Part shown: positions 30,882 through 63,000 of the stretch, piece after piece
Numbering within the stretch: position 1 is the first letter of the stretch
Layout: each line of letters begins with the position of its first letter
Assembly (NCBI GenBank): GCA_947172415.1
Contig: OX359191.1
Span: forward strand, 6,014,001-6,078,000
DNA from: Chondrosia reniformis
Taxonomy: Eukaryota > Porifera > Demospongiae > Chondrillida > Chondrillidae
Direction: 5' to 3'
Length of the DNA: 64,000 nucleotides
The notes under the pieces: generated by a model
What the model was told of the DNA's origin: nothing
What the model saw: only the letters and a program-made list of their open reading frames with translations
Database searches by the model: none
Program-made: the position numbers and the translations under genes

Positions 30882-33318
30882 TTATGAAGTTTTGAAATTA
30901 ACCATTCCATAAGCAGGATTCTCTTGCAGTAATACTGATGGTTGTCCATCTTTTTGATCAGTTGATATTTTATTTCTTTGTTTTTTCTTGCTCCTTCTCC
31001 TCTTTAGAAATATGCCAGCAGGTAATATTGTAGCCATTGCTATAACAAGTAATGTTACTCCACAAACTGCTAGGGACAATGTAAATATGTTGTCTAAATG
31101 AAATAAATAAATATATATACATATATGTATGGTGAACCATTAATAAACTCTTCATACGGTTTAAACATATACTACTCTATGCTACATATTTATTTGATAT
31201 TGTTTTACACCCTCCGTTCATAATACATTATATAAAACATGTTACTGTAACATTCATCTGGCTTTATATAAAAAAGAAAACATACATATATATGTATACG
31301 TACATATGTTTCAGTTATACCATGGCGCTGAGGTGTATATGGGTTTTATACGTACGAGTCATATACGTACACCGAAGCGCCGTGGTATGAGTGATATATA
31401 CTACGTAGCTTCTTATCGTTATTTTGGCGGGACTTTCAGGATGGCTCATTTAGCGTCTGGTTAGTTTTGCTTAAATGCTGACGACTTTATAGAATGCTCT
31501 TGCCCTGACTACTCCAACTGTCCTAAATGTAAGGAGAATTGTCCACCCTCCAAGTAGAAATGTCTTAGTTTACCATATTTGGGCAGGGATATAACAGGAT
31601 TTAAGAAGCCGATGCAGTATATAGCTTCTTAAATCCTGTTATATCATGGTTACGAAATTTAAACACAGGTGGTTGCCCCGGCAACGGAGTATATATACTT
31701 TTTACACTCTCTGGTCTACATATACAAACATGAATCAGTTTGAATAGCAATTACGTATATGCAAAAGGTGGTTATGCTTATTAATCTTTACTATTATATC
31801 ATGTATAATACACACTGAGGTCCCTTGCTGTACTGTAGCATCTCAACAGTGATACATTTGTGCTTTAGTAGGCTATTCTGTATATTCAACTAACCTTTGA
31901 AATGTTGGTGGTTCACTGGCTTATTGGCTTGTTTACCATCCATCAGTACTGTACTGTATGTACTGGACTCCAATGGTATGTATAGTGACACTTGTCTTGA
32001 AGCTACACTGGTACAAACTGATTTGACAAATTCTAATATTTACGTAGGTGATCTTTGTTGAGATCATATAAATATGGTTATTTCTACTTGCCTTGTATCA
32101 CTGAAAGATTGACTGAATTACTCTTTTGGGGATTAATCGGATCATTTCCAAGATACCTGCACCAGAAGGTTGTGCCATTGAAGCTAGCAGGCACTGGTCC
32201 TACCTCTATAATGTGTGCATCCTCTGATCGAAGGACTGATCTGTAATACTTTTGGTCATTTGTATTGTCCAGGTTTATAAGGTAACGACGTTTGCTGCTG
32301 ATCCAATCTGGATCCACTGATATTGGGGAATGGTTACATGATAGCTGGACATATTGACCAACACATAGTGTTACTTCTTTTAGTCCTCCTGGTAGAAAAC
32401 TCAAATTGATTTGAAAAGAACCTAATGTATGTATGTGCATATGAATAATCTAATACACCATTTTTGAACATGGTACATGTAGTATAGAGTAAAAGGCTTA
32501 TATAGGGAACTAAACCTAGTGAGAGCTTTGGATGAGGATACAGAGTTTGTGCTGAATCTATAGAGGTCTCATATACACAAATTTGGTGACAGCAGTTGAA
32601 CTAGATGTTAACTAAGACACATGATGAAATTAAATGAATGTATACTCTAGGTGAAAGTCAAATTAAATTTTATGTATTATATATATGTATTGTGTTAGGC
32701 TATTGTAAGTAGACTGAAACTAACTGAGAAGATTGAGCTCTTTTTAACTTTATATTTCAATATTAATATTATTGATAACACAATTGTTTTTATATATGTA
32801 TGTGTTTAAAAACATTCTTGTAAAGTATACGTATATGTATATAGATAGCAAGTGGAACACATTTCTAACTGTATAAGTATGTATATACGTAGATCGGTGA
32901 TCCACTCTCCCGAAGCTACATGACACAACAAATTTCAGTGGCCATGCAAAGAGGCAATGCTGCCTCTGTGCTGGGCACCTTTGAACAGTGTACCGTTAAT
33001 GACAATTAATCTTATTATATTATATTATTCAGTTAGAGACGTAGATCTATTTATTTGTTTTAAAAAATTAGGTATTTTTAACAATACAATGATGGCAACC
33101 TTATAATAATAGTATTAAACGTGTTATTAAAAATATAATATATACCTTATATATCTTAAATTTAGACTGTTATAGTTTGTAATTCACCGGGCCAATGATT
33201 TTGATACGTCTATACAGTACATTCATTGTGTTTATATACATAATTCATACTCACCTACTTGTTGGATCAATTTTAAGTTGAGACAACTTAAAAGTAGAAT
33301 AATAGTTATTTTTATCAT
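30882..33318 (-). CDS. Ig-domain receptor with NPxY tail, complete, 4 exons
   Basis: Minus-strand exons: 33255-33318 (ATG, signal peptide starting MIKITIILLLSCLN), 32092-32421, 31895-32032 and 30882-31093 (stop). All introns are phase 1 and the total is 744 nt, or 247 residues. Exon 2 is a V-like Ig domain: Cys in YVQLSCNH, Trp in PDWISSKR, second Cys in TTFWCRYLGND, final strand SNSVNLSVIQ. Exon 3 is a ~46-residue membrane-proximal segment with one Cys. Exon 4 holds a TM helix (FTLSLAVCGVTLLVIAMATI), a basic stop-transfer (KRRRSKKKQR) and the tail ENPAYGMVNFKTS. NPxY is a PTB-domain ligand or endocytosis signal in known receptors. The exon 2 donor is GC (AAG|GCAAGT), the known minor class. 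The ligand is unknown. Confidence 0.8.
31312..31692. mobile_element. Double-hairpin DNA element, copy 2
   Basis: An inverted copy of 18997-19350. It shares 'gcttcttatcgttattttgg', the hairpin 'gatataacaggatttaagaa' with its inverse, and the terminal GTTGCCCCGGCAACGGAG. It lies in the last intron of the Ig receptor. Confidence 0.75.
32480..32560. repeat. Penelope-associated dispersed repeat fragment
   Basis: 'tatagggaactaaacctagt' plus 'gagctttggatgaggatacag' matches 63680-63740 and, more weakly, 25460-25520 and 63390-63435. Confidence 0.55.
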
Positions 33319-37603: not shown

Positions 37604-40600
37604 GGTTTATCTTCACTTTGATTCATCTCAATAGGTACATAGGCAGGATTCCTCTCCATTTCATCATCATTTGTACTTTCAATATTATGAGGATGCAATG
37701 AATCTATATCATAATAGTGAAACCAAAATCTATCAAAATTCATTTGTTAATCAGAATTAAGTTATACTGGATATTTAACAATTTGAACAGATACAGTACT
37801 GCTAACCTTTTGACCTCTGTGAAGGAATCTTGTAATTTCTTCTGTACACACAAGAAGCTGCCATGCATGTAACTATGAATGTATTCAAAATAATCGCAAA
37901 AAGGGAAATAAACACAATTGAAGTGATTATCCATGAACTGCAGACTGAATTACCTGTAGATGTACACAGGGAGAGATGTGAAGAGAAAAAATGGAAAACG
38001 AAGGTTAACATATGGTAAGGCTAACATTGCAGAAGTGGCATACTGAAACTTAACTATACACATCACTTCTATGTTTGGGTGTATCATGGATTTAATGGAT
38101 GCATATATATGACTATATATACACTCTTACCCTACACTTATGTATACATTGAATATATACATACCTAGCTGATCATTTATTGTTGTTACTGATGATAATT
38201 TAATGTCACGTCTAATATTGGGATTCTCTTTACAATAAGTTCCAACTCCAATCTCATAAGATGTACCAGGAGTAAGACCTTTAATAGTGTAGGATGTTTC
38301 AGTAGTGATTGTATTCCTCAAACTAGATCCATCTCCACTCTGTTGCCATATTACCTCATACATGAAGGTACAGTTCTCAAAACACTCATCACTGTAGGAC
38401 CACATCAGGGAGATACTTGTATCAGAAGGGATGGATGTGAGTGAGGTTAGAGGAAGGGGAGACTCTGAAGGAATATTAGCTATGAGAGAATAGTATATCA
38501 GATGATAATACAATTTGTTACAGCATATATTATAATGTATGTAGGGGAGACTCTGAAGGATTATTTGCTGTCAGAGAACATATTATAGATATACGTAGAC
38601 TATGTACAACATGCATACTCACCTCTAACTCTCACAGTCACAAGTTCACTCTCCTCCATACTACCATCAACATACACAACAGCACAAGAGTAGTTAGCCT
38701 CTCCATTGAGGAAGACACTCTTTCTTGTTGTCACACTCACAACTGTCTCAATATTACTGGATACAACCATATGGTATGTATCAGGTAGATCAATCCTCTC
38801 TCCATCCTTCATCCACACTACAGAACTGGTCTGATTGAAGATGGGTCCACCTGATGTAGTATCAGTTAAATCATGATGGTGACAGGTGAGTTGGACTTGT
38901 CTGTTGTAACAGACTGGATTCTGTGAAACTTCAATTTGAATTACATCTAAGGACAAAAAAGTAATCACTTACTGAAAGACCTGCCTCCTATTGACCTACC
39001 CAATGTTGTAATCTCCACTTTCACTGTATCACTGATAATATCTGGATACTGTACACTCTGTACTGTGATCATAAAGATGTAACTTGTATTTGGTGTTAAT
39101 GACTCTACTGTGATGGTCATGTTAGTAGTTGTATATGATCTACACTGAGATGGATCAGTTACTCCATTGACAAGAAGACAGTGAGTGGTGTTAAAGAAGA
39201 CATCTTTGTAACAATTTGACATGCTGTAGTTCCATAACGTACTAATATTATTTGGTCTCAAAAGAAGATGAGCAATTAAAGGAACATTCAATGTCTCTAC
39301 AAATTTAAAGTCATTGGAAACGTTAAGAATGCTCATTAATTATATTTTTATTATATATATTATTATTATTATTCTAGTGCCCATGCATACAACAGATGTA
39401 TAAAATGCAAACCAAAGGTGGTTAAGGGGCACAGGGCTATACCTGGACACGTATAAACCATCGCCACTTAAGGCTACCAGGCCCCACTTCCCAGACAGTC
39501 ACATACACAAGCACCGAGTTCGGAGGTGGTGTATTATATTATAGTTCAAGTGAAATAAAGGATGAAGGGTGATTTACAGAGTGGGATGATGTGGGTATAT
39601 AATGTAGATAATATAGATGTATGTATACAATAAAGGTAATAAAAGAAAGCAAATTATAAGGTATCCAGGAGATATATGAAATATGAAATATATACAGGGG
39701 AGGGAGCCATGGGGTTATTATCCAACGTAGTTTCGTCTTTTCCACATTTTTAGTATTAAAAACCCCATTTTAGTACTCCTGCAAGCCTCAGTCAATGCCA
39801 CTATCAGTTTTTCACTATCTAGTTTACTATCAAATTCAGCAACCCTCTCTCTTAACTCCTCAAACAAACTACTTCTTTCATCACCGATCTTTTCACACCT
39901 AAGAATGAAGTGGTTACTGTCTTCTACTTCCTGTGATTCATAATGCTGACAAAGACGCTTGCTCCTCTCTATTCTAGACCATCTACCCTCTTCTACTCTC
40001 AGTCTAGCTGTGCCTCCTCTTATCTTAGAAATAAAGCTTCTAACTTCTCTATTTCTAATATCAGTACTATAACTAGGTTCACTAATAGACAGTAGGCCAG
40101 CTAAGTCCTGCAATTTACTGCTACTGGCTATACTTTCCTTCCATTCACTTTGTAGCTCTCTCTTAAGGCAACTGAATACTACTGTTCTAAACTCATTGCT
40201 GGATAGGCTCTTACAGTCAGTAGGGTCTCCTAGCTTCAACTTATCAAATATGCTAACAATCTTTGAGACCCAGTCAACCCTTATATTATTAGCTAAAATG
40301 TAAGCGATTACTCTTTTAACAATTACAGATTCTGGCCTGATTAACAGCTTTCTCCAGTACAACACTACTTTCATCCTAACTCTCCATCTTGCAGGAATCC
40401 AATTACTTTCTGTCTCTAAGGCTGTGATAGGGTGATGTATTCCTACCCCTAGGAAACCCCTTAGGGCCCTATTCTGTACCTTATCTATCATCCTCTCAGG
40501 TGACCTATATATTGCGTATACAGTAAACATATTAAACCTACCGACAATTAATGTAACACCATTGCTGTACTTTTGGTCACTGACATTAGTCTTGGTGGCA

Positions 40601-40856
40601 ATAGAACACTTGTAGTCTGTTCCTGGTTCATGTATTGCTTTAGTGATATTTATCTGTAGTCCAGTGACAGTAGAGTTAATATACATAATCTGCTCACTCC
40701 CTCTAGGTACAAACATTACTCCATCCCGTGACCAAAGAACAGAAGGTATATATCCACTGCTCCCTCCCAGAGGAGGATGTGTACAGTTTATCTGATAAGT
40801 CTCTCCATAACACACTTCATCAGGTAGAGCAGTCAGAGTGAGAGAGACGGCATTCA
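37604..40856 (-). CDS. Ig-FN3-Ig-FN3 transmembrane receptor with NPxY and YxNL tail (5' end not found)
   Basis: Minus-strand exons, all phase 1: 40542-40856 (Ig: YQINCTH, VLWSRDG, DYKCSIA), 39000-39296 (FN3: VESLTPNTSYIFMITV), 38623-38946 (Ig: VQLTCHH, VVWMKDG, NYSCAVV), 38165-38479 (FN3: GLTPGTSYEIGVGTYCKE), 37807-37953 (TM: IITSIVFISLFAIILNTFIV, then CVYRRNYK) and ~37604-37711 (tail with RNPAYVPIEMNQSED ending TYVNL and stop). One domain per exon with symmetric phase-1 introns is the classic shuffled-receptor layout. NPAY is a PTB ligand type, and YVN fits the Grb2 SH2 consensus YxN. The signal peptide exon should lie beyond 40856 but I could not find one. The transposon block at 41.2 kb may have separated or removed it. 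Confidence 0.75.
38010..38098. mobile_element. Partial copy of the foldback element arm
   Basis: 'acatatggtaaggctaacat' to 'catcacttctatgtttgggt' matches 19893-19983. It sits just outside the TM exon acceptor of the Ig-FN3 receptor, within the intron. Confidence 0.8.
38540..38590 (-). repeat. Relic duplicate of the FN3 exon start
   Basis: 'aggggagactctgaagga' followed by 'tatttgctgtcagagaa' repeats 38457-38490, the 5' edge of the second FN3 exon. It is a small local duplication in the intron. Confidence 0.6.
39345..40541 (-). mobile_element. 5'-truncated LINE fragment (post-RT C-terminus, 3' UTR, AAT-rich tail)
   Basis: 39718-40540 is open and reads …MIDKVQNRALRGFLGVG and LCQHYESQEVEDSNHFILRC. 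The first matches the conserved post-RT 'iQNrAlRfFLGV' region of non-LTR retrotransposons. The second is a Cys/His motif also typical of their C-termini. A 3' UTR follows, ending in an (AAT)n tail at 39345-39375. The open frame begins in the Ig exon and crosses the splice donor without a stop, so exon and LINE form one 379-codon frame. It is 5'-truncated and therefore immobile. Confidence 0.75.
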
Positions 40857-41389
40857 CTGTGGAGAAGTAACAATTAGATTACTTGGAGGTGTATTACCTA
40901 CTAGAGTAGGATTAATAATGAACGCAACTAGAACTATGCCTATCACTACGTAGTGAGAAGAAACAAGTAACAATTTATAGATTGTGTTTCCATTAAAGTA
41001 CACATCTACTTCTCTAAAATAAGCCTAAGAGACGCTAGAGAGATGCTAACCTAATTATAACTAACCACCAGAGGCCTGCGTCAGGATTAGGATAATTAAG
41101 TACATTAGAATCCTTTTTGTAATTGTCTGTTGATATTCGATCTCGTTTTAAAAACTAGTCTACACATATAAAGTCCTATCGTGAATTTGAATAGTCTCGT
41201 ACCCAGCCCCACTTCCGGCCGCCATTTTATAAGGCGCGGAAGATGGGTCTGGAGAGGGTGTTACTAAAATGCGGAACGGTACGGAACGTTCCGCAAAGAG
41301 GAAATACGCTTTTTCCCACGGAACGTATCATTACCGCATATACTCGCATAGCGTATAGACATATTATTGCGCAATTATTGGAAAGTCAG

Positions 41390-41530
41390 ATATTCGTCCT
41401 GAAGAACTCTGTCAAGTGTCTTGAAGAACTCTGTCAGGTATTCGTCTTGAAGAACTCTGTCAAGTATTCGTCTTGAAGAACTCTGTCAGGTATTCGTCTT
41501 GAAGAACTCTGTCAGGTATTCGTCCTGATG
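41390..41530. repeat. Five-copy tandem repeat, ~29-bp unit
   Basis: Units read 'cttgaagaactctgtcaggt' plus 'attcgtc'. The array is within the outer copy of the MULE left end and is absent from the inner copy at 42210. Confidence 0.9.
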
Positions 41531-42085
41531 TTCACCTTGTAAGTATTACTTTATGAAATACATTAAGTGACTCTACTAAGGTACTAAATATTTCCATAGG
41601 TTCTTTTTTGTCCTTTTTTGGGACATTTCTCATTCATATTGAATGTTTTTTTTCTAGAACTGTAGCATCATTTTTTGTTTAACCCAATATTAATCTCAGT
41701 TATTCCCACCCCATATGTTTCAGTATTTTTTCTCATTAGACTGTGTACTTATTTCTTCACTTTTTTGCCATATACTGGGTGGTTTTTGTTAGCTCAGTTG
41801 TGCATATTCCAGGTTCTGTATTTAATTAATTAATTTTAATGCTGGGTCAATAACACATCCTTCATGTTGAGAATGTCTGTTGGAATCAGCTAGTTTATTA
41901 GCATTACATGAATAATCAAACCACAAGTAATTATAATCATACGCAGGAAATGTACGTACATGTTGAGGATTGCTCTATAGTCATTTTAGTAATTAAAGAC
42001 TATCTACTAATATATAGGTATGTTCGTATACACATGACCTGCTTCTATCGGCAGTAATGTGTTGCGTTTGTGTGGTGTAACTCTG

Positions 42086-42262
42086 GGGTGTTACTAAAAT
42101 GCGAAATGGAACATTCCGCAAAGAGGAAATACTTTTCCCCACGGAACGTATCATTACCGCATATACTCGTATAGCGTATAGACATATTATTGCACAATTA
42201 TTGGAAGCAAAACCTTGTAAGTATTACTTTATGAAATATATTAAGCATCTCTACTAAGCTAC
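42086..42262. repeat. Second copy of the MULE left terminus
   Basis: The sequence starts GGGTGTTACTAAAATGCGAA and parallels 41256-41600, apart from the tandem array. Either the terminus was duplicated or the transposase gene's own end is this one and 41256 belongs to a second insertion. Confidence 0.8.
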
Positions 42263-42309
42263 TAAATATTTCCAGAATACAAATATTGTTTTTTGCAAAC
42301 TGTTCCCAT

Positions 42310-45300
42310 TCAAGTTTGCATTTGAAAGTTTTTGTAACCTTGAAGGATTTGATCTAAAATCCATAAGCGTATCTCGGGCATGTCATTCTGTAGAGATATA
42401 AAGTCTTCTTCTGAATTATTGAGTATCCACACATATAAAGTGCCTAGCTGTAGTAATATACCATTCACCTGTGTGTAGTTGTAGCTGTTTACATTCATAA
42501 TCTTATGGATTCCGTACTAAAATTATAGATTTATACAGCTGTAACATATATATAATATATATAGAAGTCTCTTTAAAATTGTGCTTTTATCAGACTGAGT
42601 ATGTCAACTTACCAAACAAGTAAAAACTCCACAATCCACTGAATTGGTTTGCAATGGAATAGTTGACTGGAGTGGAGTATATTATGTGGATGTATTTGGT
42701 TCATTAATGTATGTTAGCCTTCACTATAATATAAAGGAGACTCACAGACTTATTACTAGTGGGACAGGAATGTTTCCAACTGATGTTTCTTCCCAGTCTA
42801 CTGTTAATTTGATTCCCTACTTCTTTCATGAAGTCAGTAATAAGCTTCTTATGCATATGACTACCCAATGAATCAAACCATTCAGCAAGTTTATGTACAG
42901 CATCAAAAACCTATAAATGAACAATGATTGCTATGAGCCATTATTGCAGACATGTATATAATGGGGTTACCACAAGTGTCCAGTGGCTATTGTGGCATAT
43001 TGGGAAAAAAAACACATCATGGTGGTTCATATCCTTCTGCATGGAGAAATGATTGTGTGTTTTGATAGGTCAGTCAACTGTTCACTTAGTATGAAACAAT
43101 GGGGTTGTTGGATTGTATTTACCTTTTGATACCAAGTGCCAAAATTTCCTTGGGCCAACAGGGGAAAGAGTAATGGATTAGAAACAAAAGCTTGAGGTTT
43201 TCCTGTAGTGGACTGCATATAGTAGTTATAACTAATTTATACCCCTTTGATATTAGATTAATATAGGGAATAGCTTACCTTTATTGAATAGACTTGACAG
43301 CACACTTTAAAAAATGCATAGACTAAGTCATCACTAAACCAGCTACTTTGCAATGCTGATAGAACCCCACTGGCAGTCAATGTGCATCCATATTTAGCCA
43401 GCTTTGTTGCTTTATCTCCAGTCCCATGCTGTTGAATTGTTTGTGCTTCAAGTACAAAGTCATAAACCTGTATGGCCAGGCCCATATACTATATAACATA
43501 ACCTCTAACTGAAGGATCATGAATGCCGTCATACCTCTTTTGCATTTTCTGGTGAAAGAATCCACCACTTTGTAGTAGTTAGGTCAACAGTTGTGAACTG
43601 TGTTGATTTTGCATCTGAATGTAAGCATGGTTATTTAAGGAACATGCCGCCAAGACTATGTATCAGTAATGCATGCATATACGTACCTTCTTTAGGATCA
43701 CCAAGTTTGCAGTAAGTGTCCATTTGCATCTGATCAGGTTCAGGCTGATCTTTCACTGTGCATGAATGTTATATAGATTCAGCTTTGATAATCTTATACT
43801 ATTTGTATTGATATAGAAGCATTGCATAAATTAAACCAGTGAATATCAACGTATACCTTCCATTATCTGTTTGGTGTCACTCTCAATGACATCTATTGTA
43901 ACATTTTCTCCTGTATAATATAAGAGAGTAAGTATGTCAATGTTCATGTATAATAATATCAAATGTAGCTTTACTTTCACATGTCCTTAGCAAGCACTTC
44001 CTGTGTCTTCTGTTAGGCCCACCAAATTTAGTTTTGTCTTTACAGTTAATGCAAGAACCACAGTCTGTATATGTCAAACAGGCAGTACACAGTCCACAGG
44101 CAAATGTCCTCTTTTTAGGCAGGATAGTAACAGCTGCATTTTCCAAAAATTGTAGTTATTTCTATATAATTGTTACTTCAATATACTTGTGTGTACATTT
44201 ATGCTTACTGGGTTCTATGTAAGTGTCCTCATCATCTGGTCGAGGTCTCTTTCTGCCAGATTTCTGATAAGACTTTCCTCTTTGCTGTCTTTTTCTAAGC
44301 TGAGTAAGATTAGGGTAAATCCTATCACGGTTCAATGATACTAAGTTCATTGACAATTTCGTGGCTAGTACATGGTAACATTCCTTGATGGCATTACAGC
44401 TACATTTCTCCTTGGGGAATATGGTAACTATCCGGACATTTCCTGTATGACATTTAAAAGTCACCTGTAAATTTTGACCATGCATTTAGATTGCATGTAA
44501 CTATAACTGTTAACATACCAGTAGTTCCTTTTACGTTGAATACACCCATCTTAGCATTGAATGCAATGTCCCCATTGCTGATGATTTGTCTAGCCCTTGC
44601 CAACTGAGATTGTGGCTGATCAGTTAACCAGTTGGTTTTGTCTATGTGGTGCACGTAGTTAAGGTTTTACAAATTTACATAGTGGTAATATGTGTATGGT
44701 GTATGGATTATACCCTTAAAGATGGCCTTTTTGGTATCTTGGAAGAGCTCTTGGGATCCAGAGTCAAGTGATGTTGTTACTGCTGTCATAATTAGTAAAA
44801 ATAACTTACATGAATATTTGAATTTATCATGCATGTATATACCAGAACTAATACTGTCGCTGCTTTCATTCTGTTGGTAATCACTGCTGTTTTCCTTGTT
44901 ATCCTGAGGGGAGACTATTATAAGAATGCCATATATATCATGCTTATCATCACTTAAGTAACCAATAGATAAATATAAATACACATTACCTTCTTCAGTA
45001 GTAAGTGTCTTGTGTATTCTTTCCACAATATCATCAGGTGCCACACAGTTCATGAATGTTATATTACTTGGAGAAGTGGAAAGACTCTTGTACTCTGGTG
45101 ACAGCTGGAATCCTCCAAGGCCAGCCAAACCCCGTTGTATCTCATTGTAGTAATATGATTGCAGCTGGTAAAGGGAGAGTACCAGGCAATCTAGTGGAGT
45201 CTCTTTCCAGGCTTGGAGGTCTTTGATAACCCTGTTTAGAGATTCAGACTGGTTGTTGGTTACTCCACTAAATGGGTGGTAAATGTTTCTTTCTTCTAGG

Positions 45301-46859
45301 GTCCATCTGCTGATTTGTGGCATTACTGTGGCAATATTTTGTTGCCAGTATTGTACATATGTAGCATCCCACCTTCTTGAAAGCACTTTAAACAGTGCAT
45401 CTTGTGCATTTTTATTTGACTGGTGAAGTAACTGCCTCAGATGGTCTAAATAGATCTCTTTCTCCACACTAGGTGCACCATGGGATGAAAGCCATCTACG
45501 CACATCTCTGAGGATATGGTTCCAGCAGTAAACAGGGAACAAGGATGGAAGTTCCTTTTGGAAAGCATTTGTTATAGCCCTCTCGCGGTCCAGGACTATG
45601 GACACCTGAGAATTTTTTGTCAGCTGTGGTACTAATTTCTTTAAAATGCGTACAAACGTCACATGTGTGTCTGTGAACTTCCTCTCGTGTATCATGAACA
45701 GAGCTGGTAATATAGGCACATTTGTAAAAAATGTATGGCAAAATAAAAAAGCAGAGAGGTAGAAATCCCCCAACTGAAATGTGGTGTCATAGGATAGAAG
45801 CTGTCCCTTGCTATTGAGAGCCAATGTAGTATCAAGCTCTTGTATTATCTCCTCCATCCCAAATACTACCTCTAAATCAGGGTATGTATGAATGCTTCTA
45901 ATAAAGCCATTTAAATCATAGGCTATTTCGTGGAGATTATACAAAGCATCACTAGAAATACGAGATTTGTGCTGTGCAGCAAATCTCATATTCCTTAGTT
46001 GCTTCATATTTCTTGGTAAATTTGTTGGTGTTTGTTCTGGAGGACATGTGCAGGAACTAATGGCCTTTTTATAGAGCACATTAGAAGGAGTAAGGCCTGC
46101 ACTCTGCTCCTTCAATGATGTCATTACAGAAGGAAGGGTCCTCACATATTCCTTCTCTGTGCCTTCCTTGCTATTCCTACATTAGTGTTGATATACATAT
46201 GTATATGTATATACCGTACCGTAAATTTTGCAATATACAGTATATACACATCTTGTGTCGCCTGTATAGCATGGATTGTAGCATAAATTATACCTGTGAG
46301 GATATCCTTTAGCAACAGAGTCTTCACCAATGTACTCTATCAGATGGTATGCAGGGTTGGATAATAACTGCCAGTCTATCTTTTTAAAATTTAAATTCAA
46401 CCCTTCTGCTGTTTCTGCAACAAAATAGCATTTCTTTAAAACTGGTTTTTTTCTTGGTAGTTTCACCACACCATTGTTTCGCCATCTGTACTGATCTACT
46501 CTCCAATCATCTATGATGTATTAATCATATCATTTATGCATACTACTACTACTTCTTATTTATATATAGGACAGTAAAACACTACATCTTGGCAAGTATG
46601 TACAAGGACACAGGCTCAGAACTTAAAGAAATGTTTTATTTAATAATATATGTACTTATCTTAATATTTTTTAAAATATCAGTTTAGTGCATGTATTAAC
46701 TATACCTGTTTTTTTAGGATCATCAGAGTAAAAAAGAAATATCTCACCTCCCTTTGGTTTAGGAGGGATACAGCCTATTGATTTTTCCTTGTCTGGCTTG
46801 GATAATATGTCAATGACAGCTTCTTTCACTAGAGGATTTTGACAGACCCTGAAAGCCAT
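42310..46859 (-). CDS. MULE transposase fused with SWIM, zf-CXXC and Ulp1-like protease regions
   Basis: Minus-strand exons by eye: 46706-46859, 46294-46510, 44843-46176, 44714-44782, 44519-44641, 44209-44442, 43975-44133, 43857-43910, 43687-43755, 43535-43614, 43279-43467, 43123-43202, ~42755-42910, 42613-42666, 42469-42516, 42310-42387. Exon 2 has a FLYWCH-like WRVDQYRWRNNG. The large exon is a DDE nuclease: YDTTFQLGDF, VLDRERAITNAF then CWNH, and NNQSESLN supply Asp, Asp and Glu. A SWIM finger (CSCNAIKECYHVLA) and a zf-CXXC finger (CGLCTACL, DCGSCINCKD, KFGGPNRRHRKC) follow. A C48-like protease region ends with LQTNSVDCGVFTCL (catalytic Asp-Cys-Gly). The join 43279 to 43202 does not keep frame at the obvious sites and the catalytic His is not clear, so the protease half may be decaying. 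Confidence 0.75.
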
Positions 46860-47134
46860 GCTACCCGTATTTTGGCGCCTAATTCGACTATATTCCACCC
46901 CTTTTCATTGTCAAAAGTATTCACTTAAATGTAGAATATCAAGTTGAATGTTAATTACATAATTATGACTTATCAATTTGCCGTATATCGATACATAATA
47001 AGTATATAAATATCTTACGAAATCGCTAACGTTTTGTAACGCACCACGTGCTGCGGAACGTTCCGTTCCGTTCCGCATTTTAATAACACCCTCTGGAGAC
47101 TATCTGCATAATCCTTGGCGATGATTGCACAATA

Positions 47135-47431
47135 TCACATGATGGGCACATGCTTGCATATGGCGTCAGTTTGCTCGGTGGTTAGCGATTCGTATCCCAG
47201 GTCTCTAGCGACATCAGCGATGACTCTCTGTATGCGCAGTGGCTCGACCGTTCGCTTCATCAAAGGTAGCTCCATCTCCGCTGTTCGCACCAAAGCACGC
47301 GCATGTGATCGACATGTGATTTGCTCATTATTATTCACGTATCTGCAATCTGATTGGAGTCCGCGGATCGCCGGACTCCGCCAAGAAATATGCACATAGT
47401 CCCCAAACCCATCTTCCACGGCGTCAGCCAT
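47135..47431 (-). pseudogene. Truncated ORF, RecQ-helicase-like N-terminus
   Basis: The 98-codon frame starts MADAVEDGFGDYVH and ends with VARDLGYESLTTEQTDAICKHV. That ending resembles the 'fGyesLkpeQ.eAi..v' start of RecQ-type helicases. No Walker A follows. Translation stops at 47135 and the MULE lies beyond. GC content is higher than in neighbouring sequence. It belongs to the outer transposon. The helicase assignment is tentative. Confidence 0.35.
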
Positions 47432-47584
47432 TTTTGCGGAAGTTGGGGCTGGGTACGAGACTAGAATTTGAGCTCATTGCGCGTGAAGCAAAGTATTGCG
47501 TAAGTTTAGGATCTGATTTAAACAGACTAACATTGAAGCAGTGTGCTTCTGGCATATGTAAAAGTTTGAAAGACAAAATTACAT

Positions 47585-50640: not shown

Positions 50641-50873
50641 TAATTCACCCCCCTCCTAACTTGAGCCATCTTCCTACACCACTTAATTTATCATGCATAA
50701 TAATTCAATGGATTTGCTTCAGGTTAAGTGGTCATTTAGTGTTAAGTAATTATAATCCTTGGTATATTCTATGTGAGAGGAGCCCATATGGAATTTAAAC
50801 TGCGCTACATAGTTGTTAGACTCCCTAAGGTTGGATCCTTTCTTAAGATGCATGCACTTCTTCTCTTGGTTAG

Positions 50874-53800
50874 ATTCTGTTGAGTTACCAGTCAAACATG
50901 GAAGATTGAAGAGATCGAATTCCTCAGTGTCAATTGATGTCAGAAAAATGGAGGTAAATCTTAAATGGGCCAGTAAACCTAAAAAATGGTTCAAAAAGGT
51001 TGGGAGAAAGTTTTCAGTAGGTAAAACAAAAGAAAACCAAACAAAAGTGCCATCCACCAAAAACCTAAGCCAGCAACAGGAAGGTGACGTAGAAAGCAAC
51101 AACCTGGAAGAGTCATATTATAATGAATCAGCAATATACATGCAGCTAAGCAAGGTGGATAATGAAGAAACCGATCTTAGTAGTAATCCACTAAAGAGCC
51201 TAAGTGGACAGGAAGAAGAAATAAATGAACCACTATCGCATGGCAAAGAAGACAAAATGCAGTTGATAATGAGTCAGTTAGTAGCCCAAAGTACAGACAT
51301 TAAGGAATTTAGACAAATAGTAATCAAATCATTTTGTGACTTACAGAAAGGTGTGGATGAAGTCACATTAAAAGGTAGCAATATTGAAGTCCTTCAATTG
51401 AAACAACAGCTGGCTGATGAGAAAGCAAACTTTACCCAGGAGTTACAGAAACAAGAGGAGCTACAAAGGAGTACAAATCAAGTCTCAGTTGATCTGAAAG
51501 AGAAGACAATTTTTCTTGAAGCCAAAGCCAAGGAAAAGGAGAGTGAAATCCTTCAATTGAAACAACAGCTGGCCGATGAGAAAGCAAACTTTACCCATGA
51601 GCTACAGAAAAATGAGGAGCTACAAAGGAGTACAAATCAAGTCACGGTTGATCTGAAAGAAAGGACAACTTTGTTTGAAGCAAAAGCCAAGGAAAAGGAG
51701 AGTGAAATCCTTCAATTGAAACAACAGCTGGCTGATGAGAAAGCAAACCTTACCCATGAGCTACAGAAAAATGAGGAGCTACAAAGGAGTACAAATCAAG
51801 TCACGGTTGATCTGAAAGAAAGGACAACTTTGTTTGAAGCAAAAGCCAAGGAAAAGGAAAGTGAAATCCTTCAATTGAAACAACAGCTGGCTGATGAGAA
51901 AGCAAACCTTACCCATGAGCTACAGAAAAATGAGGAGCTACAAAGGAGTACAAATCAAGTCACGGTTTATCTGAAAGAAAAGACAACTTTGTTTGAAGCA
52001 AAAGCCAAGGAAAAGGAGAGTGAAATCCTTCGATTGAAACAACAGCTGGCCGATGAGAAAGCAAACTTTACCCAGGAGTTACAGAAATATGAGGAGCTAC
52101 AATGGAGTCCGAATCAAGTCACAGTTGATCTGAAAGAGAAGACAATTTTTCTTGAAGCCAAAGTCAAGGAAAAGGAGAGTGAAATCCTTCAATTGAAACA
52201 ACAGCTGGCTGATGAGAAAGCAAACTTTACCCAGGAGTTACAGAAACAAGAGGAGCTACAAAGGAGTACAAATCAAGTCACGGTTGTTCTGAAAGAAAAG
52301 ACAACTTTGTTTGAAGCAAAAGCCAAGGAAAAGGAGAGTGAAATCCTTCAATTGAAACAACAGCTGGCTGATGAGAAAGCAAACTTTACCCATGAGTTAC
52401 AGAAAAATGAGGAGCTACAAAGGAGTGTACATGGGAATCAAGTCACGGTTGATCTGAAAGAAAAGACAACTTCACTTGAAGCAAGAACCAAGGATAAAGA
52501 GAGTGAAATCCTTCAAGATCAATTGAAGCAACAGCATGCTGCCAAGAATACAAAAACCTCTGCTAAGGCTCTGTCAGGATGCTCTTATGGAAAATGTGGA
52601 GAAAGGTTTCAAAGTAAAGCCTTGCTGCAAGCACATAAAAGAGCCTGTGATGGTGATTTGCAAGCAAGTTTTGACAGAATTGATCACAAAAGAGCTTCTA
52701 CATTACCTAAATTGTCACCAGAAGCTTCAGAGCAATCACCAGAAAATGTTGATTTAACTAATAAAGAAACAAGAAACTACCTGCCCAGAAGAGGAGCTTT
52801 TAAACAAGAGGTTGCAGAAAGTCCTAATAAAGCAGATGGACCGTTTTTCTGTGACAAGTGTGGGATGAATTTCCCAGTAAAAAGGACTTTATGGCATCAC
52901 TGGGAGTCATGCCAAAGTGGTAATCAAGCTCCTTATGACTCAACTAGCAAAGTAAAGACAACCAAAAAGGCAGTCACATTGCCTAGCTCTTCTCAGAGTG
53001 GATTCACTTTGGATCTTCAATTGAGGCAACAGCTGGCTGATGAGATAGCAAACTTCACCTCCAAGTTACAGAAAAATGAAGAGCTACAAAAAGGGAGTGT
53101 AAATCAGGTCACAGTTGACCTGCAAGAAAAGACAACTTCACTTGAAGCAAGAACCAAGGATAAAGAGAGTGAAATCCTTCAAGATCAATTGAAGCAACAG
53201 CATGCTGCCAAGAATACAAAAACCTCTGCTAAGGCCCTGTCAGGATGCTCTTGTGGAAAATGTGGAGAAAGGTTTCAAAGTAAAGCCTTGCTGCAAGCAC
53301 ATAAAAGAGCCTGTGATGGTGGTTTGCAAACAAGTTTTGACAGAATTGATTACAAAAGAGCTTCTACATTACCTAAATTGTCACCAGAAGCTTCAGAACA
53401 ATCACCAGAAAATGTTGACTTAATTAATAAAGAAACAAGAAACTGCCTGCCCAGAAGAGAAGCTTTTAAACAAGAGGTTGCAAAAAGTCCTAATAAAGCA
53501 GATGGACCGTATTTCTGTGACAAGTGTGGGATGGATTTCTTAGTAAAAAAGACTTTGTGGCATCACTGGGAGTCATGCCAAAGTGGTAAACAAGCTCCTT
53601 ATGACTCAACTAGCAAAATAAAGACAACCAAAAAGGCAGTCACATTGCCTAGGAGTGGTACAGCACAGAACCAGAGACTGGATGATAAAAGTCATGAAAA
53701 TACTGCAGAAAACCCACATTGTGAAATATGTAACAAGGAATTCACATGGGATCAGCGTCTTGAGCTTTGGGACCACAGAGAAAAATGTAAAAAGCAATAA
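50874..53800 (+). CDS. Coiled-coil/C2HC zinc-finger protein with 54-residue tandem repeats (likely 3' exon of the CARD gene)
   Basis: A single exon of 2927 nt. It is open upstream to 50813, but there is a strong acceptor (cttcttctcttggttag) at 50873, entering in phase 1, and an alternative ATG at about 50849. After a basic segment (KPKKWFKKVGRKF) come seven tandem 54-residue coiled-coil repeats (ILQLKQQLADEKANF, LQKNEELQRSTNQV, EKTTLFEAKAKEKE), 51387-52500. Two copies of a 666-bp block then each encode coiled coil, a C-x4-C…H-x4-C finger (CSYGKCGERF … HKRAC) and a C-x2-C…H-x4-C finger (CDKCGMNF … HWESC). A final finger (CEICNKEF … HREKC) ends the protein. Joined to exon 49465-49810 it gives ~1090 residues, the CARD-plus-coiled-coil layout of signalling scaffolds such as CARD9/CARD11. 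Confidence 0.75.
51387..52500 (+). repeat. Seven tandem 162-bp coding repeats
   Basis: Each unit encodes 54 residues beginning near LQLKQQLADEKAN. Units differ by only a few bases (for example FTHE/LTHE and QKQ/QKN/QKY). Such high identity implies recent unequal exchange or conversion, so copy number is probably polymorphic. The last unit has a 2-residue insertion (VHGNQ). Confidence 0.95.
52470..53655 (+). repeat. Two-copy 666-bp direct repeat in the coding exon
   Basis: 52470-52985 and 53136-53651 align at a constant 666-bp offset and encode the same zinc-finger pair and linker, with about twenty substitutions. The coiled-coil segment between them is also homologous to the 54-residue repeats. 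Confidence 0.95.
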
Positions 53801-54089: not shown

Positions 54090-54805
54090 ATAGAAGTAAA
54101 GATGGCCAGTGTTGCAACAAAGAATATAGCACACATAAAGTATCACTTCTATGCATCATGCCATGGGCACACCATGGATAGCTGATCATGAAATTAAGGA
54201 TGGTTCCCTTTAATTTCCAGATGTGCTGTTCATTGTTGCATGGCCGTCCCAACTTCTGACTTGTTTTAAACTTGTATTTCTGTTAATATATTACTTTTTT
54301 GAAAGTTTTCTTGGCCAAAATAACGTTGCAGTCAACGAAAACCAAGATTTCTTATAAAATGGCGGCCGAGAAGCGCTTTCAAATTAGGGCTTAATTCCTA
54401 GATTCATAATGATTTAATGACGATTTAGAACTGTAATCTGCCGACATAAGTTTGTTATTGCTAGAGAAGGAGAAACAAGTACTTCGAGTTTAAAAAACTC
54501 GTCAGGCGCCCCCAAACTCTACTTGCTGGTTCTTAGATGTCCGGTTAACCGATTCCGATCGTCGCTTGATTGCCGTCAATTTCAAGGCCATATCTCGTAG
54601 AAAATGTTCTTGCGCAAGCTTTACGTTACATAGTAATAGTATTAGTAAAGATGGTTTCTAAATCCTTTTTGTTGGTTCAATGTTCGACACAAAGGAAGAG
54701 AAAGCTAATTTTTAAGCTAGAAAACGATTTTTTGACGTACATATGTATCTATACGAACGGTTAAAAAATGAATGCTGGAAATAGGGCGTTTACCATCCCA
54801 ACGTT
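54090..54805. mobile_element. Diverged relative of the 19.8-kb foldback transposon
   Basis: The ordered matches are 'tagatgtgcc…cactgtta'-like blocks, 'aacttgtatt', 'gaaagttttcttggc' and 'ataaaatggcg(gc)cgagaag'. The ends 'gatggcc' and 'ggccgtccc/ccatccca' resemble the terminal repeat. It is an old, degenerate copy. Confidence 0.5.
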
Positions 54806-55423: not shown

Positions 55424-58400
55424 TCTGTGGGAAAGACATAATGATAGCACTTTACCATTGTTTTCAGTGTGAAACTTGCCATATATGTATCATCTACTGT
55501 TATATATTACATACTGTTATACATTGGCAATTTGCATACCTGTTTTATGCTATATGTTGGAATTTGTTAAATCCAATCTTACACTATTTGCATATCCTTG
55601 TAATTTTTACTTACACTAATAAATGATTATGGTAAAATCTGTGTATATGATTGTTTATAACTTACACTTACTGTATAGCCTAGCCACTAACCTCTACTTT
55701 GTTAAACTATGGGCAAAAAGAAGTAGGCTCTAGCAACTATTGTTAATTTCATGCCTTGCACAAATGCCAACCACAGGTAATATTAAAGATAACATATGAT
55801 GGTTGGTCGTTGGTGCAGCCTTGATGTAGTGGACAAGATGGTTCCATGGACTGAAGCAATCAAGGACCATAACTGGAATGTCCAGGGGACACTGTTCATC
55901 TCTCACACTAAATGCATCTTTAGCAACAGCTACTGTGAAATGGGGTGGGATTGATTTCATTGGCCGGCTCAAGGTATTAAATTGACAGTATTTGCTAGAC
56001 CTTTCAACTCTTATGCCCCCATATCTTTAAAGAGGAAAGGGCTATAATATAGAGATTACACTATAGATACTGACATAGCAGGTGAAGAAGATTTTATAGT
56101 TACTAGCATACAGAATAACCTTGTATGGCCTGTCAAATTGAACATTCCTAACTAGTTTTTTTGTCAATTGAGCTTAAGATCAACAAAAGGATGCTAGTAC
56201 TCCATACAATCTACACAGGTCAGTTAACATTATTGTACTTGCTCAGTTGAGGGATTCAACATTTTAATTGAGGGGAATTTTCAATATGGGAAGTTTACAC
56301 ATCTACAGTATCAGTGAAACCTGAATGGATGGTGACCACAGAAATTTCTATGAAATCTTATTAAGCAGTTTCAACATAGGAGAATTAGAAAGGGAATGAT
56401 AACAATGACATATTTCACACAAGAGACAGTATCCAAGAGGAAATGGAGCTACCAGACTTCATCACTTATTTAGTATTTAGTTAATTTGTATTTTAACACA
56501 AAATTAAAATACACACTGTGTGTAATATAACAATAATCATCATCTACATATAGTTCAATTTATGTCCAACTTGGTTTAGTACAGAATGTAACTGTTCACA
56601 GAAAACAAATAATCCTAGAGGTTGACAATTTTAAATGAACAAAACTACACATACGCATATCCAAGCTTGATTTGTACATCTAAAAACACACAACATACAG
56701 AGGTTGACTGTAGCACCTCATTAGGGAAGACAATAGCCCTTCACCAATATACAAATAGAGTGTCTGTGAACCAGTTGACAAGATAAGGCAATATACAGGT
56801 ATAAAGGTTTACACTTTGAAATTGATTTAATCCATACCTTTAAACTATCAAGTTGGGAGAGGCAGCCAATGAGAACAAAACATCCATTCTAACATTGGTG
56901 AGAACAGTATTACATAGTATCATACAGCTCAAATGAAAAAAACATGTTTTTCACTCAGTGTAACAACCTCGTCATTACCTCTTTATGTCAACTACATAAT
57001 GTTTACACATACGTGTATGTATTTGGCATGTACATGTGGTACACTGTTTCAAAACAGATTATAATATTTACAGAGAAACAAATAAGTTAGCAAATGATGA
57101 CTGGATTGATATACCATCACTTGACAGTGTACAATCGTACCATTGTTTTGAGATTGTATTTCAATTGTTTTACTACTTCAGATGAAGTACTAAAGTACAA
57201 CCCTCAGTGCAGAGTATGCTAGGATTTCTATGTAATTACATTCAATATTCAGTAGTCAGCGATTATAAAAAAGCATTATAAAAGGCATCTCTATGAGTAA
57301 TTAACATTGAAGGAAATATTTTCTTGAAAACAGTGAGTCAGAAATCTTTAGCACCAAATTGCTTACTTACTGGTACCCTTTGTGAACCTGTGCACTCACT
57401 GTATGGTAACAGACACACACACAGAGGCTGTAATGCCCCTAGCATGTAGGAACCAGCACACTAGTACTAGAGAATGGCGCAACCCACATAGCAGTTCAGT
57501 GTACAATGTAACCCATGCCTGCCTTATCATATTGATTATTAGGTTATATTCATTAATTAGGCTAATCGGACAAGTTATTAGTGACTGCCTGTTATCAGAC
57601 AGTGCATCCTTATAAATGGTGGCATGCATCAAGATTTGTCCTGATTTTGAAAATAAGGCTTCAATCACTCTTTGAAGCTTTCTTAAATATAATTTTCTGG
57701 AGAGGGAAGAGTGTGTTCTTCTCAGTAGTCCTTTGTGGTCAGAGGTGTGAATTCCAATACCCCATAACAACCACAAGTTGCTAATGATTAGGAGTATACA
57801 CAATATCTCCAGCATATCTAATGGTGTCTAAGGAGTAATTAAAAATAACTGAGGTACACCTTCTATATCTACCCTATCTATTTGACAGGTCAAAGAAAGT
57901 GGCTGTACAAGGTCTGTTGTTTTGTTAGCACAACACCTCACAAACACCTGCAGAGTACACAAGCACAACAATTTCTCTTCCCACTGTAAAACAATCTGTA
58001 TCTCTTAATACTTTAACCGTCAGAGTTACTTATCGTTAGCCAACATTCGTATATCAAATCTGTTGTAACTAGGTATGGCGAAAAGCTACTGAAAATAATT
58101 GTTTTTTTCTGAGAAAGGCGTTATCCAAACTTTAGATAAATTATGATAAATAAATCAGTTGCATTTGATGAAATATGGACAGGTAGAAATTTGAGGAGGC
58201 CCTTTAACAAAAGGCTCGTTTGCTAAAGTAATAATAAGTACTACCTCTTGAGTACTTTATTAAACTGTTGTAAGTATACCGTCATTCTTCGAACTGTGTC
58301 ACTTACATTACTTACTTCTAGATGCAGTGAACAGTTACCGCCAACTCCTTAATCTAGAAAGTTTAATTAAGAAAAGACAGTTGATAATCTCGGTAAACTT

Positions 58401-58500: not shown

Positions 58501-59092
58501 AGTAAGAAAACCGCCAGCAAAGCATGCGTTCTAAACCGGAAACACAAGAAGGAAAGTTCCGGAGCTTTAATTAAGAAATCACAACAAAATGGCGAGAACC
58601 CATGATAGTAATAGATAGGTCCAAATAAGGATTGACCATGAATATGATTAGCAAACACCACCCTATACGTACACAGGTAGACCCTGTCATTAGGATAAAA
58701 TGAGGGGCGTGCTGGAAGACCTACAGTTACCTCCCGCATTTTGTTAACCAGCGTGGAGAAGTTTTAACCAGTGCTACAACTGCAACTCTTTTTTTGTTAT
58801 TTCATCGCTCTCTACAGCTTGTCTGATCAGGTAAGTAAGGGCCTAGGTAATGTGTTTAATTTAAGTGTCAATCTCCCGGAATCAGATATTTAGAATATTT
58901 TATAGCGTAAGCCTTGTATAGCTTCTTTTCCAGTCAAGCGACCTTAAGACAGACTTTAGTTTTGGAGTAGCAGCACAGCATTTGTCTTTTACCTTCGAGG
59001 CGCCGTCCAACGCTTAATGCTGGCGTCATAAAGCGGCCCTCTACGTACTTTCGTCTCGCTAGTTAGTTGATAAGTTGGAGCCTCAAAAGAAG
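58500..59092. promoter_or_regulatory. Probable bidirectional promoter
   Basis: The region lies between the candidate 5' end of the minus-strand acidic-protein gene and the first coding exon of the plus-strand kinase. CpG and GC content are clearly higher than in the AT-rich surroundings (for example 58980-59070: 'gaggcgccgtccaacgc', 'gcggccctctacg'). No TATA box was placed. Confidence 0.45.
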
Positions 59093-59419: not shown

Positions 59420-59702
59420 GTAGGTGACTCGTAGCGGATGTGTTTGCTAGCGATAACGCTGCGTAGCTTGTAGTGAAACACTGTGTCCATGCACGTAGAG
59501 TGGCAAGTTATGAGTGATATTGTCGCTCGTGGTGGTCAATGGATGTCTGCACGTTATTAAGCACAAGTAATTCTGTTTGTTTGGTGCGACGACAGGCTGT
59601 CCATGTTGGTATCGTAATGAAATAGGCTTCGTACTTGGTAGCAGGCGACAGTTCAAGTATTGATTTGTTGTCAAGATACGTGTGTGATTCTAGTTAATTT
59701 AG

Positions 59703-60046
59703 GAGTGTGGACATCTCCAGTGGGCGTGGTACAGGTAGAGTGTACATCTCCAGTGGGCGTGGTACAGGTAGAGTGTACATCTCCTGTGAGCGTGGTACAG
59801 GTAGAGTGTACATCTCCAGTGGGCGTGGTACAGGTAGAGTGGACATCTCCTGTGAGCGTGGTACAGGTAGAGAGTACATCTCCAGTGGGCGTGGTACAGG
59901 TAGAGAGTACATCTCCTGTGGGCGTGGTACAGGTAGAGAGTACATCTCCAGTGGGCGTGGTACAGGTAGAGTGTACATCTCCAGTGAGCGTGGTACAGGT
60001 AGAGTGTACATCTCCAGTGGGCGTGGTACAGGTAGAGTGTATGGTC
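59703..60046. repeat. 33-bp minisatellite, ~10 copies
   Basis: The unit is GTGTACATCTCCAGTGGGCG followed by TGGTACAGGTAGA. Because 33 is a multiple of three, long open frames appear in several frames on both strands. These are artefacts. Each unit carries GGGCGTGG (or GAGCGTGG) and CAGGTAGAG, resembling a KLF/Sp-type site and a weak splice donor. It lies ~280 bp into the kinase's first long intron. Confidence 0.95.
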
Positions 60047-63000
60047 TATAGAAGCCTATTAGTGGTGGCTACTGTTCCGTAGAATATTCTGTGCTGCAAT
60101 GGGGAAGTGTACTTATTGAAGTAACAGTCGCAGGTTTCTGTGTTGGATTATGCTGGAATGAACTGCTAAATTGTGCAGTCATGTAGTAAAGAATAGTTAC
60201 AGTTGCTGACCAAGCGCCTGTTATTCAACTACCATGTGGGCACTTAGATACCAAGTACATTCCGGGATCCTCCTATATTATGTTTCACATCTCCATTAGT
60301 ACTTTGATTAATCTACGTATATCTTTGTGGACTTAAATGCAGTATTAGTGGCTCAAGTCCACTTAAGGTAATGGTTAACATGTGATCATGACTTTAGACT
60401 CTAATACTCTAAAGAGAGGAATGGTTAACTTAATTACTTTCCTAATTCAAACTTCATGTTAAATTGATTTACAGCTGTAGGAAGTCATTGTCCTATTCCC
60501 TTTAGTATGACAGTTGTAATTAGATTTATGTCAATAATAGTAGAGATAAATTGGTATATGGCTTTTGTTGGAATTATCTTAATTTGTTCCCAGTGTTTAA
60601 GTCCAGATCTCCTTTTAATTATGTTGTATACTGTACAGATGATTAGTGTAATTGTAGAGAATGTACATATATACATACATACATATGCATAGGTGAATAC
60701 ATTGAAAGGATGGGGTGAATCAATGTGAAATTAAAACTATTTTTGGTTGTTAAATTGAAGTATGAAATAGAGTATCACCACCAGCGCATTTCTGGTACCT
60801 GCCATGTACCATATACTGCCTATGTAAATATGTTCATATATACTGCCTATCCACTACCTACGTTGACTGAAATATTGTTAAAACTGCAACATCTTTCACT
60901 AAGGCAAAATCTCCTGAAATCTTTCAAAGTTCCAAATACAACAGCATTTGGTATATACATAGGTCCTATTTAATTAGCCCATGCTGTACCTAGAGTGTGT
61001 CTACCTTGCCTTTGTGAGCTGTTTTGCACATGTTATGATGTAAGGGTTGGTTACCATTCACAAACAGTACAAGGAAGTACTCCAAGGCAGGAGAGGCAGT
61101 GAACTGTATCTGACTTCCCAAGAGAAACTCTGATGCAATTGTCGTTTATGTATGTGTGTGCATGACATTTGACTTCCACTAGCCTGACTAACTTGCTTAT
61201 CAGTTTAATGTACAAAAATGGAACTTTAATAGATAATCTAACTGTATTATGATCTTAAATAGCCCTACAAGTCCCTCTGGGAAGAGGCCATATTAGTGCC
61301 TTTGGTAAGCCATAAATGCATACTATTGTATATATTTCATATGTATATATTCTTCAACAGGTCTGAATGTGTACCTAGTTCCTTTCAGTGATTGTTATCA
61401 TTGGTACAAGACCATACCTGGAAATCTCAGTTTCCAAGTCTATCTCATTAGTAATATTCTCTCTGAATAGAAACTCAGATGGTAGGGTTTTATGACATAA
61501 ATCCTTTCATGTTCTTTGAATAGACTTTAAGGGAGTGTTATCATATATCATGTGTAGCATACTTGAGATTAGACGTCATATCTGTGTGGGTACGTATGTT
61601 TGGACATGAATATCCATATTCCAGTGATACCAGCCTTCCCCTTGAGTAGGGGGTGGGGTGACATTAGGCAATATATTTAAATACATTTAAAGGTAATTAT
61701 TAGGTACCTATCTCTTCTTACACAAAAATGATTTAGAGAGAGTGTAAAGGTCTTGAGGTAGTGTACGTATGTACTGTTATTATGGGGTTGTGTTGGTAAC
61801 CCTATAGCAATACTATTATGATGTCATAGGAACTATTACCAATTTATTTTTTGGATATCTTTGGCAGTATTGGGGAGGGGAGAATAGTCTGATTATCTCT
61901 ATCTCTTTAGCCTCTTAGTAGCTATATATTCATGATTACTGTTCATTGTCACTTTAATGAATATGTAAATTAGTTTAATCTACATCTTTTCAACTAATGA
62001 GCAGACAGCTTTTCATTGAAGACATGATTTCTTCAGTTCTGTCTATTGAACAAGACAGTTATTTAGTGCACCAGTTAGGCTATGAGTGTGGACTGCCATA
62101 GTTTTAGTTGACATGGAAACTGGGAATTAGCTAGACTTGTTGGTGACATAAGCTAGTTCCAAATTCATTTTCTATTTAAAGCTCACACCTCGGCTGAACT
62201 CTCACCTAAATATAAAGCAGTTTAATCTAATTGAAAGCATTCTCCATCACATATCCAGAGCTGACTGTTTACAAACTGTCCTTGAGAAGCCATAAAGTGG
62301 ATGGGTAGCTATTGTGCATTAGCATGCTACAATGTGTAAGGATGACAACGTGAAAACTGTAATGGTGCAGTTTCCTACTTCAGGTGTTGGACCTAATCTA
62401 ATTTGATTTTTATCTAGTTCTGGTATTCCAGTGTATCTACGTATATTAAAATTGTGACAGTGAATAATTGTAGCAGTGTAGCCTCAGTGTATCTATACGT
62501 AGTATACACCTTGCTGTATATAAGTATAAATGATGGCCAATGTAAAGGAGTAACTTAATTTCCCTACTTGTATAGCTATTGGACATGCCCTGTACATAAG
62601 GTGCGTAGGTCAGTGTACGTACTTACTTCCCATTTAAAACCTACCTCCATAGCAACTGGCTTTACATGGCTTTAAAGGGATTTCTAAATTATTGAGAAAA
62701 TCTTGCTAAGGTCAAATCAGCAGGTTTTTTGGTGTCCTGTCATGTTGGCTTCTCTTTGTAGTACTATGTTAGCTAAGGTTGAATGGCACCTTAACAATAG
62801 AAGACAGAAGAAATCCATACACTGTTGTCTTAACAACCATTTTGTAGTTTTTCCTACTAATCATTTAAAACCAAATCAAAGGCTATGAAGTATACTGTAC
62901 CTGCGGGACCATGTAATCTAGGTCAATGTAGAAGGTTGAAGGTTTTACAAACTATAAACTGTAATGAGTTTTGTATCCCTTCATGGATCAAATTGTGATA

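Follow-up and report, generated by a model that had tools for sequence, protein, structure and literature searches.

Does a single gene of an animal transposon encode both a transposase and a domain that could read unmethylated CpGs, and what would such a fusion do? The question arises at a locus of the sponge Chondrosia reniformis, in a stretch of 64,000 nucleotides of contig OX359191.1 (the window, to which all positions below refer). The first-pass annotation placed there an animal Mutator-like element (MULE) combining a DDE transposase, a SWIM finger, a CXXC finger and an Ulp1-type protease in one gene. We found an apparently intact transposon with a transposase fused to a CXXC finger and a SUMO-protease-like end. 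The four proposed parts, SWIM by its motif alone, share one predicted frame, and this frame lies inside a single element with inverted repeats at its ends and a target site duplication (TSD) around it.

Element boundaries and surroundings

The whole Mutator-like element, delimited by its inverted repeats and by the empty site that its removal restores, is 5836 bp long and lies on the minus strand (41256..47091). Its left (41256..41295) and right (47052..47091) inverted repeats are 40 nt long and identical at 38 of 40 positions, and they are flanked by a perfect 8-bp TSD, TCTGGAGA, present at 41248..41255 and 47092..47099. Between 193 and 232 bp separate the positions of the right repeat from the start codon of the predicted gene, which lies downstream of it. 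The MULE is inserted in the left arm of a small element that spans 41192-47463, has inverted repeats of its own and is flanked by GAATTTGAA and GAATTTGAG. When the MULE and one TSD are removed, the left arm of this outer element continues in homology with its right arm. The arms align with a score of 47 when unjoined and 74 when joined exactly; moving the boundary (seven shifts, -6 to +8) gives 48 to 69. Because the join restores the outer arm, and does so best at the exact boundary, it shows that the MULE did insert here and that 8 bp of the target were duplicated. The element thus has a MULE domain, a TSD of 8 bp (the range for Mutator-like elements is 8-11 bp) and inverted repeats around a DDE gene; the 4-bp duplication that characterizes Ginger1 is not what is seen here.

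A decayed second copy of the MULE left end lies inside the element on the plus strand (42086..42274); it matches 41256-41383 at 89.8% identity and 41534-41596 at 92.1%. The start of this copy, where CTCTGG may form a 6-bp repeat, was rejected as an alternative left end (42086), as the ends at 41256 and 47091, which the join test covered, have both the 8-bp TSD and the restoration of the outer arm. A minisatellite (41385-41528, 26-bp unit, 5.7 copies) is located just within the left end. The outer inverted-repeat element (41192-41255 and 47100-47463) is CpG-rich and has the ends TAGTCTCGTACCCAGCCCC. Its right arm holds a 112-aa frame (47138-47473) that has no Pfam match and presumably resembles a helicase N-terminus.

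No second copy of the element was found in the 64-kb window by tblastn of the gene model, which gave a weak match at 57528-57734 (E 0.055, 30% over 69 residues); blastn of the element returned two short matches elsewhere in the window (24 and 26 nt). Protein scans of viral contigs yielded one pattern match for the transposase exon and 12 for the CXXC exon, and those of genome contigs 14 for the transposase exon, none of which was confirmed. A 22-base tip pattern had no match in the genome contigs, and none of the four matches of a 17-base tip pattern in the viral contigs extends into tip sequence. Because these collections are viral and prokaryotic, the scans say little about relatives of the element.

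Among ten other open reading frames of the window, six have no Pfam match at 0.01. Ig_2 matches below the cut-off were obtained for two minus-strand frames (38603-38968 and 39721-40878), and the end of the latter is similar to what we take to be a non-LTR reverse transcriptase tail. These weak Ig_2 matches near the element fit an animal host. A 995-aa open frame (50813-53797) carries a zf-C2H2 match just over the cut-off (29.6 vs 25.2 bits) along with two weaker C2H2 models, and another frame matches Shugoshin_N and NXF_NTF2, both under their cut-offs. A repetitive stretch (59642-60079) is open in several frames on both strands and encodes a short repeated peptide.

Gene model and domains of the predicted protein

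The gene model runs on the minus strand from an ATG at 46859 to a stop codon that ends at 42310, and the interval proposed in the first-pass annotation is exactly this coding span. In the joined exons (42310..46859), 17 predicted exons and 16 GT-AG introns (60-195 bp) give one frame of 1041 codons plus a stop, with no internal stops. The GC content is 0.30 in the introns and 0.40 in the exons. The model is predicted from genomic sequence, and several acceptor and donor sites had alternatives, of which the frame-keeping ones were picked; the continuity of the frame is therefore partly by construction. Every motif that had been named beforehand (YDTTF, LDRE, NQSESLN, KFGG and NSVDCGVF) is present. 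When the translated exons were searched with Pfam, MULE, zf-CXXC and Peptidase_C48 scored above their cut-offs and SWIM had no match. Further matches of the joined protein are below the cut-offs (Peptidase_C57, 0.00085; DDE_Tnp_IS66, 0.04), as are those of Peptidase_C57 to the protease part alone (3.5e-5) and of AEP-TOTE to the SWIM part alone (0.19). An AlphaFold model of exon 3 from the single sequence had a mean pLDDT of 38.4 and was discarded. The order of the protein as predicted from sequence is a CG-1-like domain, the DDE transposase core, a SWIM-like finger, the CXXC finger and the Ulp1-type protease.

The CG-1-like part was overlooked earlier and is tentatively added to the domain set. 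It covers residues about 10-112, encoded by exons 1-2 (46329..46832, minus strand), and was recognized by Pfam and by alignment to CAMTA proteins. The first 129 residues alone match CG-1 at 21.3 bits (E 2.4e-4, residues 10-64), below the curated cut-off of 23.5 that defines membership in this CAMTA family, and on the joined protein the match is weak (0.002). Alignment to two CAMTA CG-1 domains, both recognized by Pfam as CG-1, extends to about residue 110-117, and the scores are reached by 1 and 0 of 1000 shuffles, respectively. Support is weaker for the second half of the stretch alone (3 and 32 of 1000 shuffles). With the Arabidopsis CG-1 domain as query no CG-1 structure was found in the PDB set, and among PDB sequences the N-terminus of the element's protein had four weak unrelated matches (best E 0.13). 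The N-terminal stretch thus aligns over much of the CAMTA CG-1 domain but scores below the Pfam cut-off, and the protein differs from CAMTA in having no other scored CAMTA-type domain.

The transposase core matches the MULE family at residues 251-346 (45510..45797, minus strand). The joined protein scores 28.0 bits (3.1e-6), a margin of 0.4 bits over the cut-off of 27.6, and the unspliced transposase exon, one of ten unspliced pieces scanned, scores 29 bits (1.5e-6). The candidate DDE residues, which we take to be catalytic, are D254 and D320 within the match and E435 beyond it (codon at 45243-45245, minus strand). Downstream, the sequence CSCNAIKECYH (residues 623-633, 44372..44404, minus strand) has the form CxCx5CxH and fits the SWIM motif CxCx(n)CxH. 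Pfam gives no SWIM match on the unspliced pieces or on the joined protein, and some CxCx3-12CxH motif also occurs in 35 of 5000 shuffled proteins; a SWIM finger is therefore plausible, not proven.

The CXXC finger (residues 695-739, with KFGG at 723; 43979..44113, minus strand) is located by Pfam and alignments. It scores 47.1 bits on the joined protein (2.4e-12; cut-off 26.5) and 2e-14 on its unspliced exon alone, another of the ten pieces. Since MULE and zf-CXXC both score on single unspliced exons, these two matches are independent of the gene model. The finger has the eight cysteines of the family and matches fingers of solved structure (22 distinct sequences), including those of KMT2B, CFP1 and MBD1. 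With these type-1 fingers it shares the eight cysteines, the KFGG mark of type-1 CpG readers and a clear sequence match, but it belongs to a transposase rather than to a host chromatin protein, and its reading dipeptide is HR where theirs is KQ or RQ. According to a passage of PMC3685328, the dipeptide of CpG-reading type-1 CXXC fingers is KQ or RQ, and that of the type-3 finger of TET3 is HQ. The earlier description of a textbook CXXC finger thus holds for the type-1 scaffold and not for the dipeptide. Because the dipeptide is HR and not KQ or RQ, CpG reading by this finger is plausible, not assured.

The Ulp1/SENP-like protease region occupies residues 782-1041 (42310..43614, minus strand), as supported by Pfam and by a match to SENP2 (chain 1tgz_A, E 1.4e-13). 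The joined protein scores 44.1 bits for Peptidase_C48 (2.9e-11, cut-off 20.7, residues 896-1023), and the unspliced piece around the catalytic cysteine stays under the cut-off (0.02), so this match needs the joined exons. In addition to the motifs named beforehand, the candidate protease residues H919, D936, Q984 and C990 are present, and from the alignment with SENP2 we assume that they are catalytic. The catalytic regions of SENP2 and SENP1 align with the element and have the HW, FDS/LDS-type and QxNxxDCG motifs in common with it, whereas in the element the protease-like part is fused to a transposase. By this similarity, the protease would remove SUMO or a related tag.

CpG distribution in the element and its insertion site

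The observed/expected ratio of CpG is 0.40 in the whole window, 0.18 in the gene span (27 CpGs in 4550 bp) and 0.146 in the coding sequence, which contains two NCG codons and 93 NCA codons. The ends of the element are different: the left terminal 128 bp contain 12 CpGs (ratio 2.04) and the right terminal 93 bp contain 10 (ratio 2.58). Overall, 22 of the 71 CpGs of the element are within its terminal 220 bp, a number reached by none of 100,000 uniform placements that ignore base composition; the GpC control has 13 of 196 dinucleotides in the same terminal 220 bp. Each inverted repeat carries five CpGs at offsets 16, 21, 26, 31 and 36, i.e., in exact 5-bp steps. Those of the left repeat are at 41272, 41277, 41282, 41287 and 41292, and those of the right repeat, at the same offsets, fall within 47054-47075. 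Five CpGs at 5-bp steps occur in two places in the 64 kb, both of them MULE tips, and no run of at least three CpGs at 5-bp steps was found outside the tips in the window. In the decayed copy at 42086, three of the five phased CpGs are gone: the sequence is TG or CA at two of these positions, and the third lies in a gap. This ladder in the ends fits a CpG reader. Because a CXXC-type finger is fused to the transposase and the tips carry evenly spaced CpGs in a CpG-poor element, the element may sense DNA methylation; the CpG-rich tips could also simply be an unmethylated promoter.

The arms of the outer element are CpG-rich as well (ratios 0.94 and 1.07). At least nine CpGs in 92 bp are found in seven regions of the window, three of which correspond to the MULE tips and the arms of the outer element. 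The four others (19215-19355, 31338-31442, 54484-54633 and 58967-59087) are possibly promoters or repeat ends. With flanks of 50, 100, 200 and 400 bp, 4.7%, 2.3%, 0.21% and 0.20% of same-size window stretches, respectively, are at least as dense in CpGs as the surroundings of the insertion site, figures that describe a single insertion event. Because the arms of the outer element are CpG-rich, the CpG-rich landing site is largely that element itself. The landing site, the phased CpGs of the two tips and the ends of the element were, like the CG-1-like part, absent from the first-pass annotation.

Proposed mechanism, alternatives and known systems

We give about an even chance to the reading of the locus as an autonomous Mutator-like DNA transposon with CXXC-gated cut-and-paste transposition and a fused protease. 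The boundaries and the TSD are observed, and the DDE core would excise the element and insert it elsewhere with an 8-bp duplication. Binding to the CpG-bearing inverted repeats, in their unmethylated state, would fall to the CXXC finger, with the CG-1-like and SWIM parts probably contributing. If the tips are bound only when unmethylated, transposition would be gated by host DNA methylation, and the same finger may bias insertion toward CpG-rich DNA. The SENP-like sequence and candidate catalytic residues suggest that the protease would strip a tag, SUMO or a relative of it, and that its substrate would be either the transposase itself or silencing proteins located at the ends. The best reading of the sequence is that CXXC, and perhaps CG-1, may read unmethylated CpGs in the element's own tips, in the target or in both. 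A fuller version, in which the CXXC and CG-1-like parts read the five-CpG ladder, only unmethylated copies move, new insertions go to CpG-rich DNA free of methylation, and the deSUMOylase counters silencing of the ends, is possible although we hold it to be doubtful.

A finger used for targeting only, which directs new copies to CpG-rich DNA that is unmethylated and leaves recognition of the ends to the SWIM-like and CG-1-like parts, would suit an element that lies in DNA as rich in CpGs as only 0.21% of same-size window stretches (200-bp flanks). This would be based on one insertion and by itself leaves the 5-bp-phased CpGs of both tips unexplained, and we regard it as rather unlikely. The same CpGs bear on the alternative that the tips are unmethylated promoters kept CpG-rich through promoter use, the CXXC fusion having no role in tip reading. 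The right repeat does lie just upstream of the start codon, at the distance given above, the neighbouring outer element is CpG-rich too, and HR is not the dipeptide of the known type-1 CpG readers. However, CpG richness extends to the left tip, which lies downstream of the gene, and a promoter is not expected to need exact 5-bp spacing at identical offsets; we judge this explanation unlikely.

Two further alternatives concern the gene itself. The model could be misjoined, the element holding a transposase gene and a separate CXXC-protease gene, or could be an artefact of splice choice: it is a predicted model, several splice sites were picked to keep the frame, and shifting the boundary of exon 14 by one base breaks it. 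Against this, all 17 exons are on the same strand, the GT-AG introns between them are short and the frame has no internal stops; a single exon is enough for the CXXC match and likewise for the MULE match, and everything lies within one inverted-repeat pair, which makes a misjoined model very unlikely. Domestication of a MULE as a host gene would agree with the long intact frame, the CpG-depleted codons (ratio 0.146) and the absence of a second copy from the window, but the 38/40 inverted repeats, the perfect 8-bp TSD and the recognisable empty site in another repeat make it the most improbable of these explanations.

Zisupton was considered as what we presumed to be a candidate kind for the element, and a literature search for Zisupton with Ulp1 matched no papers. 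The first-pass annotation had described MULEs with Ulp1 as known from plants. A section of PMC2836005 reports Ulp1 in Mutators of several plants but also of hydra and lancelet, and in Ginger1. The Mutators of these organisms share with the element the MULE transposase and the C48 protease. Ginger1 is likewise an animal transposase with Ulp1 at the C-terminus, in one case accompanied by a PHD finger, and differs in its Gypsy-integrase-like core and 4-bp target; CXXC is unmentioned in that paper (PMC2836005). The 8-bp TSD of the element falls within the 8-11 bp given for MULEs in part of PMC6446971. Table 1 of that paper, which lists for each MULE group the type of zinc finger and any additional motifs, has no row with CXXC, CG-1 or Ulp1, and 'CXXC' and 'CG-1' do not occur in the main text. 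The CXXC and CG-1-like parts set the element apart from the MULE groups of that table, a comparison in which Repbase entries are not included. In the accessible text of PMC10027918, on MULE-derived FHY3 genes in animals, CXXC and CG-1 have no occurrences, and the 'CXXC domain' in a passage of PMC12460157 refers to host methylation genes.

No CXXC or CG-1 transposase was found in literature titles and abstract openings, among the matches listed (Repbase reports and most subscription journals lie outside this coverage). The suggestion that the combination may be undescribed thus stands for these two domains within the literature searched, and not for Ulp1, which an excerpt of PMC2836005 already places in animal Mutators. 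CXXC, and perhaps CG-1, may be Mutator accessories for which we found no report, and the combination may have been described in literature beyond this coverage.

If the proposed mechanism is true, the transposase would carry its own reader of host DNA methylation, and the CpG-bearing ends of the element would match that reader. CXXC, and tentatively CG-1, would join the domains taken up by DNA transposons, and the long-standing question of how transposons sense and escape methylation in animals would become testable with one protein and one 40-nt DNA.
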